This document shows positions 3,119-10,276 of a stretch of 64,000 nucleotides of DNA, in pieces. Below the pieces are notes generated by a model. That model saw only the letters and a list, made by a program, of their open reading frames with translations. It made no database searches and was not told the origin of the DNA. This stretch comes from Kaiparowitsia implicata GSE-PSE-MK54-09C (lineage in GTDB: Bacteria; Cyanobacteriota; Cyanobacteriia; Elainellales; Elainellaceae). The translations under genes and the position numbers were made by a program. How positions within the stretch are numbered: position 1 is the stretch's first letter; each line of letters begins with the position of its first letter. The stretch is from NCBI GenBank assembly GCA_019359435.1, contig JAHHHI010000066.1, positions 1 through 64,000 of the forward strand, read 5' to 3'.

Positions 3119-4465
3119 CTAATGCCCGAACTGCAGTGCCTTGCCGCGCACAGCCGGATCGATCGTGCCGTGGTCGTAGGCGACCTGACCACCGACGATC
3201 GTCACCTGGGGATACCCCGTCAGGTTCCAGCCTTCAAAAGGGCTCCAGCCGCATTTGCTGAGCACATCTTCACGGCGAAAGGGCTGATACGTGGCAAGAT
3301 CTACCAAGACTAGGTCGGCATCGTAGCCAGGGGCGATCGCCCCCTTCTTGGCGATACCGTAGGCGTTTGCCACGGCGGTCGACATCCAGCGAGAGACCTG
3401 GGCCACCGTGCAGCGCCCCTGCGCCGCCTGGGTCAGCATCAGCGGGAGCGAGGTTTGAACACCCGGCATGCCGGAGGGGGTATTGGGATAGCCCTTTGCT
3501 TTTTCCTCAAGAGTGTGGGGGGCGTGGTCTGTGGCAATGAAGTCGATCACACCATCCAACAGCGCTTGCCAGAGAACGTCTTGGTCGCGGGGCGATCGCA
3601 GCGGCGGATTCATTTGCGCCAGCGTGCCAATCGTCTGATATGCGTCGGTATTGAGCAGCAAATGCTGCGGCGTCACTTCCGCTGTGACCCAAGCGGGCTT
3701 TTCTATCCGCAATAGATTGGCTTCGTCTCCGGTAGACAAATGCAGGATGTGAAGCCGCCGCTGATACAACTTAGAGAGACGCAGCGCTAACTGAGTCGCT
3801 TCTAACGCTGCCTGGTTATCTTGAATTTCTGAGTGAATGGCGACATCCGTTTCCCCAGAGAATTCTTCTCGCCGCGCCAAAATTCGCGCATGGTTTTCGG
3901 CATGGACGGCAATCAGCCGGTTTTCGTAAGTCGAATCCGTCACATCTCGATAAAAAATGCGATCCAGCGATTCCGCATCATCCACCAACAGCGGCCCATG
4001 CATTGACCCCATAAACACCTTGATGCCGCAGGTGGGCGAGGCCGTCCTCAGATCGGGCAAATTCTCCTTAGTTGCGCCGATAAAAAAACCAAAATTCACT
4101 AAACTCTTACTGGCGGCTCGTGCCAGCTTATCGTCCAATGCGGCCTGAGTGGTCGTGAGTGGTCGGGTGTTGGGCATTTCTAGAAATGACGTAACCCCGC
4201 CCCGTACGCAGGCGCAGCTGGACGTAAACAAATCTTCTTTATGCTCTAGCCCCGGCTCTCGAAAATGCACCTGGGGGTCGATCACCCCCGGCAACAAAAT
4301 CAGCCCACTGCCGTCAATCACTTGGTACTCGTCAAGGTTGTCAATGGCAAGGCCAGCGCCGACGCGGGCAATGGTGCCCTGGTGAATTTCAACATCGGCG
4401 ATCGCCAATTCCCCAGACGGCAGCAGGGTTTGAGCATTGCGAATGAACATAGGAGTTCGTGTCAT
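3119..4465 (-). CDS. pyrC: Dihydroorotase (amidohydrolase superfamily)
   Basis: This enzyme reversibly cyclises N-carbamoyl-aspartate to dihydroorotate in pyrimidine synthesis. The 448 residues show the amidohydrolase order: DPQVHFREPG (metal site), EMPNTRP, IKVFMGSM (position of the carbamylated Lys), AVHAEN, LHILHLST (His ligand) and ATDHAPHT with the catalytic Asp. The first His of the usual HxH pair is Gln (QVH). I recall this from a whole subgroup of bacterial dihydroorotases, so I do not take it as loss of function, but allantoinase-like or other activity cannot be excluded. The ATG at 4465 (MTRTPMFI) is preferred to 4489. The 3' end lies 127 bp upstream of the cobO start on the same strand, so they may be co-transcribed. 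Confidence 0.85.
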   Translation of the reverse strand: MTRTPMFIRNAQTLLPSGELAIADVEIHQGTIARVGAGLAIDNLDEYQVIDGSGLILLPGVIDPQVHFREPGLEHKEDLFTSSCACVRGGVTSFLEMPNTRPLTTTQAALDDKLARAASKSLVNFGFFIGATKENLPDLRTASPTCGIKVFMGSMHGPLLVDDAESLDRIFYRDVTDSTYENRLIAVHAENHARILARREEFSGETDVAIHSEIQDNQAALEATQLALRLSKLYQRRLHILHLSTGDEANLLRIEKPAWVTAEVTPQHLLLNTDAYQTIGTLAQMNPPLRSPRDQDVLWQALLDGVIDFIATDHAPHTLEEKAKGYPNTPSGMPGVQTSLPLMLTQAAQGRCTVAQVSRWMSTAVANAYGIAKKGAIAPGYDADLVLVDLATYQPFRREDVLSKCGWSPFEGWNLTGYPQVTIVGGQVAYDHGTIDPAVRGKALQFGH

Positions 4466-4856
4466 AAACGCCCCACAGAGGTGGGTCACAAAACAGCGGA
4501 ACAGGGATGGGTCTGGATGAAATGGAGCGTTGCCGTTCAGGCAGCCTCCCTAGGTCAAGAGTACAGTACCTGTTACGAGCTAGGGCTGATATTGGTGCGA
4601 ACCAGTACCCATGGAGTGCCCCTAGAGTAGCCCTTCTCTAAACTTGCCGTCGCTTCTCATCAACCCTTGCTAAACTTTGGATAGACCTGGCAACTTGGCG
4701 AGAGCAATCGGTCAAAATCTGAGTCAGACTCATAGGTAATTCTTTCCAAGTCCATAACGCCGATCGACGAGTCTCGACCCGACGGATTCTCACTGAGATT
4801 TACACCCAAAGTGTTCAGATCAGTGCTTAAATCAATAAGCGAATTTCGCCCCGTAA
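4466..4856. other. Intergenic region between divergent pyrC and lepB
   Basis: 391 bases contain no convincing gene. The short frames here, including one on the minus strand running into lepB, have no recognisable similarity. The region should hold the divergent promoters of both neighbours, but no clear -35/-10 pair or operator stood out. Confidence 0.5.
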
Positions 4857-5609
4857 ATGCAGATGTCAGACCAACCAAATTCGAATCCTCAATTGCCTCA
4901 GGATGCACCAGAACCCAAGGTGCAGCCCACCTCTATCGCGAATGGGCAGGTTAGTAATGGTCAGGCTGGGGCAGCAAAACTTGAGGCTCCTGCTCACTCA
5001 ACAGAGGAAAACCCCCTCGTAGAAGGGCTGAAAACCATCGGCCTTAGCATCGTCTTGGCGCTCGGCATTCGCACCTTTGTCGCAGAAGCACGCTACATTC
5101 CCTCAGAATCAATGGTGCCGACGCTAGAAGTGAACGATCGGCTCATTGTGGAAAAAATTAGCTATCACTTTAATCCACCTCGGCGGGGCGATATTGTGGT
5201 GTTTTCCCCTACAGAACGCTTGCGGGCAGACAACCCCAGCCTCAATGATGCATTTATCAAGCGGGTGATTGGCCTGCCGGGAGAAGAAGTGCAGGTGACC
5301 AATCGTCAGGTCTTTATTAATGGCGAGCCAATTGACGAGATTTACATTCCGCCTGAACTCGCACCCGAGTATGACTTTGGGCCAGAGATTATTCCCGAGG
5401 GGGAATACCTGGTGCTGGGCGACAACCGCAACAATAGCTACGACAGCCACTTTTGGGGCAATGTGCCACGCAGCAACATCATTGGGCGGGCTGCAGTTCG
5501 CTTCTGGCCGCTAGATCGGGTAGGCAGCATTGGGCCTCTGCCCAACTTTGAGGATGCGCCTGCTGAGGCTGAAAACGAAGCGGGGGAACCTCAGCCTGCT
5601 GCCAATTAA
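4857..5609 (+). CDS. lepB: Signal peptidase I
   Basis: This membrane-bound serine protease removes signal peptides from exported proteins. Residues 1-50 are a polar, low-complexity cytoplasmic tail, followed by one hydrophobic segment (TIGLSIVLALGIRTFV). Box B, PSESMVPTL, contains nucleophile Ser85. DAFIKRVIGLPGE contains the general-base Lys135, and VLGDNRNNSYDSHFWG is box E. The S26 Ser/Lys dyad is complete. Translation may start at ATG 4857 or at ATG 4863 (MSDQPNS). A Pro/Glu/Ala-rich tail follows the catalytic domain. The gene stands alone. Confidence 0.95.
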   Translation: MQMSDQPNSNPQLPQDAPEPKVQPTSIANGQVSNGQAGAAKLEAPAHSTEENPLVEGLKTIGLSIVLALGIRTFVAEARYIPSESMVPTLEVNDRLIVEKISYHFNPPRRGDIVVFSPTERLRADNPSLNDAFIKRVIGLPGEEVQVTNRQVFINGEPIDEIYIPPELAPEYDFGPEIIPEGEYLVLGDNRNNSYDSHFWGNVPRSNIIGRAAVRFWPLDRVGSIGPLPNFEDAPAEAENEAGEPQPAAN

Positions 5610-5878: not shown

Positions 5879-7213
5879 TTAGCATGTTTTGGGCTGCCAA
5901 GTTTTGAGGACACGCCCTTGAATCGGGTGGTGAAGCCAGGGCGTGTTGTGGGAGAGAGACTGGAGATGCTGGGGTTCTGGAACCCAATGGGAATTGGGAT
6001 CGAAGAGCGTAAGTTCGGCAGGGGGCTGAGGGGCGTTTGCCCTGGCGGTCTCGGGACGAATCACCGTTAGGGTTTGCCCCATGCAGCGGGCGGGGTTGCT
6101 GCTGAGGGCGCGCCACAGCGCTAAGGCAGAGCAGTGCTGGGGTTCTACGAGCCCGTGCCAGAGAAGTGGCAGCGCCAGTTCTAAGCCGATGGCACCGGGT
6201 GGGGCTTCGGCAAAGGGCACGGTTTTTTCTTCATAGGTATAGGGGGTGTGGTCGATGGCGATCGCATCCAGAACCCCAGTTTCTATCGCGTGCACTAGGG
6301 CGGCGCGGTCAGCGGGTGTGCCCAAGGGTGGCTCTAGCCGCAGGCTTGGGTGATAGCTGCTGAGCGACTGGGTACTGAGCAGCAGGTGCATCCAGGAGGT
6401 GCTGGCGGTGATGGGCAATCCGGCGGCTTTGGCCTGCGCAATCTGCTCAACGCCACGAGCCGTGGAAACCCTCATCACGTGAACGGGAACCGCAATGGAC
6501 AGATCTGCCAGCGTTTCGAGCAGGGCGGCGAGGGGGGCCGTTTCGGCAATGGCTGGGGTGCCTGGCAACCCCACGCGAATCGCGTCTACCCCATCCCGCA
6601 TGACCCCACTACTTTGAATCGCTGGGTCGCAGCACCACAGCGCTAGGGGTTTGTTTAGCGCTTGGGCATATTCGAGTAGGCGGCGCAGCAGCAGCGGGTT
6701 GGTCAGCGGGCGGCCATCGGCAAAGCCCACGATGGGGGTGGCTGCCAGCTCTGTTAATTCACTTAGCTGTTGTCCTGTGGCTCCTTGGGTAAATGCGGCC
6801 CAGAGATAAACTTGCGGCATTGAGGGGAATGGGTGGGATGCGTTTCGAGAGGTGAGCGCCGAGCGCACCCAATCTATGCTGGCGGGGTTGTCGATGGCGG
6901 GCTGGGTGGTGGGCAATAGCGTGAGGCGTGTGAAGCCGCCTGCGGTTGCAGCTGCGCAAAGCGAGGTGAGGGTCTCGCGCGACTCATAACCGGGTTCTCC
7001 CGACTGGCTGTAGAGATCGACTAGCCCTGGCCCTAGCACTAGCCCGGTGCAGTCGCGGCGCTCAGTGTTGTCGGGGAGTTCACCTGGCTCAGCCGCTGAC
7101 CCGGCGTCGCTTACAGCTGCGACTTGCCCATCGTGGAGCCACAGGTCGCAGGGGCGATCGCTCCCGGCAACTGCATCAATCAGCCGCACATTCTGCAATA
7201 GTTCCGATGCCAT
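5879..7213 (-). CDS. Dihydroorotase-like protein lacking the metal-binding residues (PyrX-type)
   Basis: The overall fold and length (444 residues) match dihydroorotase: PGLVDLYSQSGEPG at the HxHxREPG position, TLLPTTQPAID at EMPNTRP, and AIDHTPYTYEEK at TDHAPH. The two His of HxH are Tyr and Gln, the carbamylated Lys position reads IVGFADG, and the third His ligand region reads LALWCCDP. The catalytic Asp remains, but a metal centre cannot form. Known inactive dihydroorotase homologues (PyrX, PyrC') serve as structural partners of aspartate transcarbamoylase; that role here is inference. The start lies 8 bp after the stop of the nucleotidyltransferase gene, so the two probably form an operon. 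Confidence 0.85.
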   Translation of the reverse strand: MASELLQNVRLIDAVAGSDRPCDLWLHDGQVAAVSDAGSAAEPGELPDNTERRDCTGLVLGPGLVDLYSQSGEPGYESRETLTSLCAAATAGGFTRLTLLPTTQPAIDNPASIDWVRSALTSRNASHPFPSMPQVYLWAAFTQGATGQQLSELTELAATPIVGFADGRPLTNPLLLRRLLEYAQALNKPLALWCCDPAIQSSGVMRDGVDAIRVGLPGTPAIAETAPLAALLETLADLSIAVPVHVMRVSTARGVEQIAQAKAAGLPITASTSWMHLLLSTQSLSSYHPSLRLEPPLGTPADRAALVHAIETGVLDAIAIDHTPYTYEEKTVPFAEAPPGAIGLELALPLLWHGLVEPQHCSALALWRALSSNPARCMGQTLTVIRPETARANAPQPPAELTLFDPNSHWVPEPQHLQSLSHNTPWLHHPIQGRVLKTWQPKTC

Positions 7214-7221
7214 TTGCTGCT

Positions 7222-8052
7222 CTATGCCTCTCCAAACCGTTGATAGGCGGCTGCCAGTGCTCCGGGCACGCCCACATCCAGAAATTCTCCAGATTCAAAA
7301 TAATGGCCTTGCACCTGTAGCCCTGCGGCGATCGCCGCTTGAATCACATCACCGACATACAGCTCGGGCAACTCGGGCTGGGTGCGGCGATGGGGGCGAT
7401 CGCTCGCCAAAAACTCATGCATAAACTGGGTAAACGTAGGCCGCCAAGCGGCGATGATCCAGCTCTCTCGCAGGGGAGAATTGGGTGATTTGATCACGAG
7501 CTGCTGAATGGGTTGAGCGTTGCCGTCTCGACGTGAGTCGCGGTGATTATCCCATGCCACCAGATCCACCCGCGACGCCTGGGCTGCGTCTACCGGAAAC
7601 ACACCCAGCATCACATCCGCGCCAGTGTTCCCTAACCGCTGCCGAATCTGCACAAACGCATCTGCCGGGTGCAGCAAAATATCTGGAAAGCCCAGCAGCA
7701 CATTGGCCCCGCCGAGGAATGGATAGGCGCAATCTAGCGTGTAGGGCGTGCCATAGGGGTCAGACATGATCAGGTAGGCCAGATCTAGCCCCAGCCACTC
7801 TCCGCTTTTGTAATACGCGGGAATATCCCACTTCCCTGGCTTGAGAATGATCAAGGTTTTGCTTACACCCGCCTGCTGGTATTGCTCTAGCAGGTAGTGC
7901 GACACGGCTTTGGGATGCCGCCGTCCATTCGCAGCCGTGTGGAACCCAATTGGCAAAATTTCCTTGCTACAGGGCAACGGCTGCAGCCGCGTTGCAGAGC
8001 CGCCCGCGGGTAGCAAGCCTACCCACGCGTCAGAATTGGCACTGGTCATCAT
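7222..8052 (-). CDS. NTP-transferase family sugar-1-phosphate nucleotidyltransferase
   Basis: The N-terminal signature GLLPAGGSATRLQPLPCSKEILPIG corresponds to the LAGGxGTRLxPLT...KxLLPV block of glucose-1-phosphate thymidylyl/uridylyl-transferases. It binds the nucleotide and is followed by the HYLLEQYQQAGVSKTLIIL segment. Such enzymes make NDP-sugars for polysaccharides. The sugar cannot be told from sequence. The protein (about 276 residues) has the length of a RmlA-type enzyme. The start is uncertain among GTG 8064, ATG 8052 and ATG 8049. It is the first gene of a probable two-gene unit with the degenerate dihydroorotase. Confidence 0.85.
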   Translation of the reverse strand: MMTSANSDAWVGLLPAGGSATRLQPLPCSKEILPIGFHTAANGRRHPKAVSHYLLEQYQQAGVSKTLIILKPGKWDIPAYYKSGEWLGLDLAYLIMSDPYGTPYTLDCAYPFLGGANVLLGFPDILLHPADAFVQIRQRLGNTGADVMLGVFPVDAAQASRVDLVAWDNHRDSRRDGNAQPIQQLVIKSPNSPLRESWIIAAWRPTFTQFMHEFLASDRPHRRTQPELPELYVGDVIQAAIAAGLQVQGHYFESGEFLDVGVPGALAAAYQRFGEA

Positions 8053-8064
8053 GACGATTGGCAC

Positions 8065-8818: not shown

Positions 8819-10156
8819 CTACAGCGCCCCGGCGGCCGTGCGGTCGAGCACGCCCTCACCCAAATGGCTGGTGATGTTGAGTGCCTGCACCAACGGGGCT
8901 TCTGCGGCCCCTCGGGGATAGTCAATTACGCTGACGGCCCCGTTACCTTGCTTAAAGCTCCAGAACTGATTCGGGCCAGCCCCGACGACAGAAGCCAGGA
9001 TAGCTTTGTTAATCGCATCGTGGGCCACAACGAGCACCGTGGAGCCGGGGGCTGCGGCAGCAACGAGGGTGTTCCAAGCGGCGATCGCCCGTTCCCATAC
9101 TTGCGTCAGGTTTTCACCTTCGGGCATTTGCACCGTTTCCGGCGCGACCTTCCACTGCTCTAGCTCGGTGGCATAGTCAGCGCGAATTTCTGACTCCAGC
9201 TTGCCTTCCCAAAGGCCATGGCTAATTTCCTTCAGGCGATCGTCAAAGCTGAGCGATATGCCTGCATGGGCTTTGAGGATAATCTCGGCGGTTTCGCAAG
9301 GGCGCAGCATAGGGCTGCTCACAGCGGCATCTATGGCAATATCTTGCAAGAAAAAGGCGGCTTTTTCGGCCTGCACCCGCCCTTGATCATTCAGAGGTAC
9401 GTCAATCTGGCCCTGAAAGCGCTGGTCGCGGTTCCAGTCGGTTTCGCCATGGCGCACTAGCAAAATTCGGGGCCCTTGCAGCTCGGTCTTTTTCGGCGGA
9501 ACCGGCAGGTTGAGATGCGCGGTGGCGTTCATCGACTCGATCTGCACCAGGTCGCCCAGCGTTCCTGCAAAGTTGAGCACACTGATGCCGCAATTGGTCT
9601 GCTGAAATCGGTTAAAGCGGTCGGCATCTAAGCCAATGGCGGTTTGAATCAGCGCCCGGTTAATGCCGCTGTGGGCTACCAGCAGCACCGTTTGGTTGGG
9701 ATGCTGGGGCAATAGCTCGCGCCAAAACTGACGTGCTTGGTCATAGAGCGATCGCAGGGGATAAAACGGCTGCAACCCGGTGGACGTGTTGATCTGCAAC
9801 TGCAAGTCATGGGGGCGGCTGCGCCAAATTTCGTACTGCTCGGGAAAGCGCTGTTTAAGTTCATCGAACAATAGCCCTTCCCAGCCTGCCAGGTTCACTT
9901 CACGCAGTTGGTCGGTGAAGTGAATGGCGGGTGCTGTGGCGAACTGAGCCGTGATCAGCTCTGCCGTTTGGCGAGCGCGTCGCAGAGGGCTCGCATATAC
10001 CGCGTTAAAGGAGAGCGATCGCAACGCTTGCCCAGCCCGACGGGCCCCGTCTTCTCCGGCCTCTGTGAGCACCGACTCGTCAAGTAGGCCTTGAATGCGG
10101 CGCTCAGCATTGAAGCTGCTGATGCCGTGGCGCACCAAAATTACGCGAGTAGCCAG
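8819..10156 (-). CDS. Tandem histidine phosphatase (phosphoglycerate-mutase-like, two domains)
   Basis: Two complete histidine phosphatase domains lie in one chain of about 445 residues. Domain 1 begins VILVRHGISSFN with nucleophile His10; domain 2 begins ILLVRHGETDWN near residue 236. Each has a second motif with the partner His (LLVAHSGINRAL and LVVAHDAINKAI). The layout is that of cyanobacterial proteins often labelled phosphoglycerate mutase, related to slr1124-type phosphoserine phosphatases. The substrate is inferred only. Homologues begin MxTRVIxVRHG. Here the matching codon is CTG at 10156, with a perfect AGGAGG at 10165-10170, 8 bases upstream. An ATG-type alternative at 10219 would add 21 unrelated residues. 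Confidence 0.87.
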   Translation of the reverse strand: MATRVILVRHGISSFNAERRIQGLLDESVLTEAGEDGARRAGQALRSLSFNAVYASPLRRARQTAELITAQFATAPAIHFTDQLREVNLAGWEGLLFDELKQRFPEQYEIWRSRPHDLQLQINTSTGLQPFYPLRSLYDQARQFWRELLPQHPNQTVLLVAHSGINRALIQTAIGLDADRFNRFQQTNCGISVLNFAGTLGDLVQIESMNATAHLNLPVPPKKTELQGPRILLVRHGETDWNRDQRFQGQIDVPLNDQGRVQAEKAAFFLQDIAIDAAVSSPMLRPCETAEIILKAHAGISLSFDDRLKEISHGLWEGKLESEIRADYATELEQWKVAPETVQMPEGENLTQVWERAIAAWNTLVAAAAPGSTVLVVAHDAINKAILASVVGAGPNQFWSFKQGNGAVSVIDYPRGAAEAPLVQALNITSHLGEGVLDRTAAGAL

Positions 10157-10276
10157 GGCCGTACCCTCCTGTGATGGTTGTAGATAACGCGCGATGGACA
10201 CCGCGCAAAACACCAGCATTGTACCCGACGGGCGGTTCCCAGTGCGATAATGCCAAGGAGATCACCCCGTCTGTGG

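Follow-up and report, generated by a model that had tools for sequence, protein, structure and literature searches.

A dihydroorotase homologue of oxygenic cyanobacteria with a ruined active site and a putative PyrX-like role

In this study, we ask what a cyanobacterial cell may do with a protein that bears the name of dihydroorotase (DHO) and has lost the histidines on which such an enzyme depends. The corresponding gene lies in the window, by which we mean the whole stretch of 64,000 nucleotides of Kaiparowitsia implicata DNA that was analysed, and its features are collected in Table 1. We refer to its product as pseudo-dihydroorotase (pDHO). We will consider its fold and its residues, their fate across the class, the genes and the other dihydroorotases that accompany it, and its possible connection to PyrB and aspartate transcarbamoylase (ATC).

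Table 1. Features of the window discussed in the text, with coordinates in window positions
Feature	Position	Strand	Basis or remark
Cobalamin adenosyltransferase gene, directly after P0002	2299-3063		PF02572
Separate dihydroorotase P0002, likely catalytic	3119..4489	minus	NF005751, 754.6 bits vs cut-off 529
lepB, signal peptidase, convergent neighbour	4857..5609	plus	PF10502
pDHO (P0001)	5879..7213	minus	ATG start, open frame, 444 aa
D321 codon, Asp305 equivalent	6251..6253	minus	alignment
R248 codon, replacing beta-site His232; covaries with D321	6470..6472	minus	alignment
D166 codon, possible Asp153 equivalent (ambiguous gap placement)	6716..6718	minus	alignment
Y68-S69-Q70 codons, replacing the HxH metal motif	7004..7012	minus	alignment
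Nucleotidyltransferase-like ORF, here between pDHO and the phosphatase gene	7222..8064	minus	weak family match
Two-domain histidine-phosphatase gene	8819..10219	minus	PF00300, two stretches

Fold and active site of the window protein

The window protein passes the cut-offs of two dihydroorotase families, NCBIfam NF005614 (PRK07369; 583.8 bits vs 456) and TIGR00857 (299.1 bits vs 279.05), and a Pfam search with it returned no match at E 0.001. Its AlphaFold model, for which the input was an alignment of 58 class sequences, reaches a mean pLDDT of 92.8, and the closest solved structures are type-I dihydroorotases (Z 50-52). These include the enzyme of T. thermophilus (Z 51.8) and the chain of A. 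aeolicus DHO that was solved together with ATC (Z 50.5, rmsd 2.4 over 413 residues, 29% identity). The A. aeolicus enzyme, which shares this fold and forms a DHO-ATC dodecamer of class A1 (3d6n, 4bjh), is described as carrying one zinc, bound by His61, His63 and Asp153 with Asp305 nearby, and as being active in the complex (PMC3880350). Its second metal site, formed by His180 and His232, is empty, and Asp153, a zinc ligand in this type-I enzyme, sits close to the position that the carboxylysine occupies in E. coli (PMC3880350).

In the window protein, by contrast, the histidines of this site are lost. The equivalents of His61, His63 and Arg65 are Y68, Q70 and G72, those of Asn95 and His180 are T102 and W193, and those of His232 and His309 are R248 and Y325. 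The residue set of a catalytic DHO (the HxH motif, the beta-site pair of histidines, Arg65 and His309) is consequently absent. The initial annotation had read the HxHxREPG motif as YSQSGEPG, and the alignment agrees with it. It had also held that all metal ligands were gone, which is true of the four histidines and not of Asp305, kept as D321, nor probably of Asp153, to which D166 would correspond given an ambiguous gap. To judge from alignment and model, the window ORF is a genuine type-I homologue of DHO whose active site is ruined.

Site loss, selection and the Arg248/Asp321 exchange across the class

The protein has matches in 151 of the 244 genomes of the phylum and in 107 of the 114 genomes of the photosynthetic class to which the window belongs, a count for which 73 match-less phylum genomes were taken as lying outside the class from a kinship-ordered genome list. 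Since psbA is present in the 9 class genomes tested (over the cut-off in 8, and as pieces at contig ends in G107) and was not found in any of 12 other phylum members tested, we take this class to be the oxygenic one.

Our residue table aligns 91 class sequences, 78 of them core and 13 from the small-genome family f19; three rows were removed ahead of the counts, L125, a split reading frame of G066, and the duplicates L130 (of L006) and L061 (of L001). Arg65, His180 and His232 are each kept in none of the 91, and this absence exceeds chance. His61 is kept in all 13 f19 copies and in 1 of the 78 core sequences, and a single sequence among the 91 (L088) keeps both His61 and His63. All 7 scored residues are kept in 12 of 12 homologues from sister lineages, and the 10 of these 12 genomes that were included in the psbA test all lack psbA. 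The f19 copies have diverged (22-34% identity), and their orthology is supported by the lepB and phosphatase genes that flank them in 13 of 13 loci, as elsewhere.

Eighteen close pairs of pDHO have dN/dS values of 0.07-0.21, which shows that the protein is under purifying selection. That pDHO could be the decaying relic of an old dihydroorotase is thus very hard to believe. It does, admittedly, evolve faster than the other four proteins in a comparison of five (mean distance 1.24 vs 0.30 to 0.54), and it is missing from seven genomes of one genus (1.6-1.7 Mb), in which a profile of the f19 copies also found nothing, while an eighth member of the genus, G217, retains it. Against this stand the low ratio in every one of the pairs and the matches in nearly the whole class. 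The conserved inactive amidohydrolase of the initial annotation is upheld by the class-wide loss of the site and by selection, with inactivity judged by sequence. The family that is named dihydroorotase is very probably not one, since the residues of the 91 class sequences in our table speak against such an activity, and pDHO is probably metal-free and misnamed in databases.

Another reading is that pDHO is still an enzyme, acting on a different amide through a reduced metal site made in most orthologues of His63, D166 and D321. The loss of HxH is indeed not uniform in the family: Q70 of the window protein is atypical, as a histidine is kept there in 55 of the 78 core sequences, in which Asp305 is kept in 71 and His306 in all 78, and an Asp precedes the Gly154 equivalent in 73. 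However, His63 is missing from the window protein, and Arg65, which in dihydroorotases serves substrate binding, is missing from every sequence. Moreover, no sequence without Arg248 has an acid at position 321, and we consider a residual enzyme improbable.

This last feature deserves attention. At the positions 232/305 of the A. aeolicus numbering (248/321 in the window protein), the 91 sequences carry R/D (71), R/E (1), N/H (11), N/N (4) or G/N (4), so that Arg248 and an acid at 321 occur together in 72 of 91, neither occurs in 19 and a mixed state in none. The covariation rank of this pair varies with the measure used: for all 91 sequences it is 2 of 69,378 by MIp and 9 of 69,378 by MI over joint entropy, and for the 78 core sequences it is 1 of 57,291 by MI over joint entropy and 25 of 57,291 by MIp. 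To count the changes, we built a quick tree from 69 of these sequences, with the two columns removed beforehand and 22 rows dropped by hand as near-duplicates or members of well-covered groups. Both positions change together four times on this tree, and four such changes are forced by its well-supported branches. As the acid at 321 is absent wherever Arg248 is absent, charge pairing fits better than metal binding, and the simplest reading looks like a salt bridge between Arg248 and Asp321 in place of the metal.

Gene neighbours and the other dihydroorotases

The initial annotation had placed a sugar nucleotidyltransferase gene 8 bp from pDHO and saw in its product an unexpected partner. The gap is real: the ORF coordinates put the stop of this ORF at 7222, on the same strand and 8 bp upstream of pDHO. 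Its family match is weak (28.6 bits vs a cut-off of 320; 15.7 vs 21.2 for PF00483), and matches at E <= 0.001 occur in 48 of 80 genomes. Close homologues (E <= 1e-51, the next best being 7.8e-8) are found in 5 of the 80 (G000, G011, G174, G091 and G118), and in the four genomes other than that of the window they are unlinked to pDHO. The check that the annotation had suggested, conservation of the pair across cyanobacteria, gives 1 locus in 92, namely the window itself. The pairing is not conserved, and a partnership of pDHO with the nucleotidyltransferase is, on these counts, rejected as very improbable.

The genes that do recur are others. These neighbour counts come from 92 loci, in 92 of the 107 matching class genomes, and are lower bounds, as 30 of the 92 loci have flanks of 1.5 kb and others are cut off where a contig stops. 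In at least 57 of 92 loci, pDHO is preceded on its own strand by a histidine-phosphatase gene, mostly near, with distances taken from stop-to-stop frames, and a convergent lepB lies downstream in at least 23 of 92. This allows one to imagine that the pseudoenzyme serves a process other than that of PyrB, for instance together with the phosphatase, and the lack of linkage between pDHO and pyrB points the same way. Yet the phosphatase gene stays in place directly after lepB in the seven genomes that have no pDHO, and the best-studied inactive relatives of DHO, as far as the sources cited below describe them, act on PyrB. We therefore regard such a role elsewhere as unlikely, if clearly less so than a residual enzyme.

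If pDHO is inactive, dihydroorotate chemistry would be done by another protein, and a candidate is at hand. The separate dihydroorotase P0002 keeps the ligand positions except for the first histidine, which is a glutamine (QVHFREPG). This is not peculiar to the window's genome, as the solved P. gingivalis dihydroorotase 2gwn also has Gln for the first metal histidine. Among 68 class genomes, the dihydroorotases over the cut-off are of the NF005751 family, to which P0002 belongs, only in 43, of TIGR00856, the E. coli type, only in 22, of both in 2 and of neither in 1, so that by family score another dihydroorotase accompanies 67 of the 68. The exception is G131, a genome rated 99% complete. Being found in 66 of the 68 genomes, and in 20 of the 22 that have TIGR00856 only, pDHO is tied to no single type of dihydroorotase, and it stays while the presumed catalytic enzyme is exchanged between two families.

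The P0002-type genes are not intact everywhere. In G185, the sole dihydroorotase match over the cut-off is of this type and has three stop codons, with no E. coli-type match over the cut-off, and over-cut-off matches of the P0002 type with one stop codon each are found in G197, G011 and G111. Partial copies of this type lie near pDHO in G062 (C36:138847-139167), G197 (C79:230830-231696) and G095 (C1:3226074-3226214); the G062 fragment is below the cut-off and beside pDHO, and the G062 and G197 copies contain stop codons. All three genomes have an E. coli-type enzyme, and these partial copies may perhaps reflect a replacement under way. The window's genome (G000) itself has two further E. coli-type dihydroorotase genes (C95:26631-27644 and C97:3199-4212), one of which may be foreign, as contamination of this assembly is given as 4.41%.

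A possible link to aspartate transcarbamoylase

What could then be the use of pDHO? In P. aeruginosa, ATC without its pseudo-dihydroorotase is described as an inactive monomer (PMC7053772). Mutants of S. meliloti in which a DHO-like gene next to pyrB is disrupted are described as pyrimidine auxotrophs, and the authors proposed that the gene encodes an inactive PyrX (PMC5929573). Fungal CAD-like proteins likewise have an inactive DHO domain that goes with ATC (PMC7053772); the likeness is one of description, and there the pseudo-DHO is a domain of one long chain, whereas the cyanobacterial pDHO is a separate protein. The analogy with P. aeruginosa and S. meliloti makes service to PyrB the most likely role of pDHO.

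PyrB itself is over the cut-off in 76 of the 80 genomes searched and in 68 of 68 class genomes, the four without it lying outside the class. The PyrI regulatory chain (TIGR00240), by which class B ATCase is recognised, was found in 0 of 74 genomes, with 7 of 14 control genomes positive, and the enzyme is not of class B by this mark. Cyanobacterial PyrB clusters with the A. aeolicus and Pseudomonas proteins and away from those of B. subtilis and S. aureus, with support (84/88) that is under the program's bar. The PyrB of the window's genome (L131:2001-3008) has an insert at about residues 205-235, of variable length among cyanobacteria and absent from the A. aeolicus and B. subtilis proteins.

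Gene positions, the weak co-evolution and the genus that does without pDHO weigh against such a link. Coordinates read by eye place pDHO next to pyrB in no class genome, the nearest approach being about 19 kb in G002, and in the window's genome pyrB and pDHO are on contigs C78 and C71. In the sister family f30, an intact DHO homologue lies beside pyrB in four genomes (G190, G171, G009 and G150), and the PyrB of the three f30 genomes tested falls outside the A. aeolicus/Pseudomonas group; in four genomes of f37, the DHO homologue and pyrB are on different contigs. A mirror-tree comparison of 29 genomes, in which G085 was left out and common descent was corrected for by means of PurA and SerS, gave partial correlations between pDHO and PyrB of 0.59 overall, 0.26 in the core and -0.09 in the small-genome family. 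This signal is weak and differs from group to group, and we draw no support from it. The control pair PyrB-ArgF gave 0.43, 0.41 and 0.29, and thus exceeded pDHO-PyrB in the core and the small-genome family.

The known system closest in kind is PyrX of Pseudomonas (class A2 ATCase), which is also a DHO homologue that has lost its catalytic residues. Two sequence-based marks of a PyrX-type protein, an inactive DHO homologue kept by selection and another dihydroorotase in the genome, are found here; a third, a gene next to pyrB, which is usual and not strictly defining, is lacking, whereas pyrX of P. fluorescens L272 comes after pyrB. The residues differ as well: at positions 61, 63, 65, 232 and 305, PyrX has N, A, R, Q and H, whereas the window protein has Y, Q, G, R and D. 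In an unrooted tree from which P0002 and L124 were left out for their long branches, a branch (94/86, under the program's bar) separates pDHO and PyrX together from the active dihydroorotases, and a tree that groups pDHO with the active enzymes of the sister lineages is not rejected (p-AU 0.146), so that the inactivation may have happened once or several times. Compared with the known PyrX-type proteins, pDHO probably lost its metal in a way of its own.

Taking all this together, we think it reasonably probable that pDHO is a metal-free, PyrX-like helper subunit of PyrB. It would keep the DHO fold and bind PyrB, whose chains it would hold together, probably as a dodecamer; dihydroorotate chemistry would be left to another dihydroorotase, P0002 here and an E. 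coli-type enzyme elsewhere; and the former metal site would be held by the Arg248-Asp321 salt bridge. The structural or regulatory role, like that of PyrX, put forward by the initial annotation is thus the best-supported reading, through the loss of the site, selection, the accompanying dihydroorotase, the absence of PyrI and, modestly, the grouping of PyrB, while the link to PyrB itself is one that we infer. The literature searched contains no published study of a cyanobacterial pseudo-dihydroorotase, an earlier remark in older papers being possible, and the main text of a survey of Synechocystis complexes has none of the words searched for, locus tags among them.

A dihydroorotase name that is wrong for this family would touch metabolic models as well as gene naming. 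Should pDHO serve PyrB, cyanobacteria would rely on a pseudoenzyme for an early step in making pyrimidines. Two genomes of the pDHO-less genus that were searched have PyrB and lack PyrI, so that PyrB works there without pDHO, and this genus is a natural comparison for the escape of PyrB from such a dependence. More tentatively, and with more doubt than belief, one may picture a class-wide ATCase of oxygenic cyanobacteria held by a metal-free pDHO, with an arginine-aspartate bridge standing in for zinc and the catalytic dihydroorotase swapped, in which one small-genome lineage has lost pDHO and PyrB has become self-sufficient there, and this would amount to a natural switch of ATCase class.
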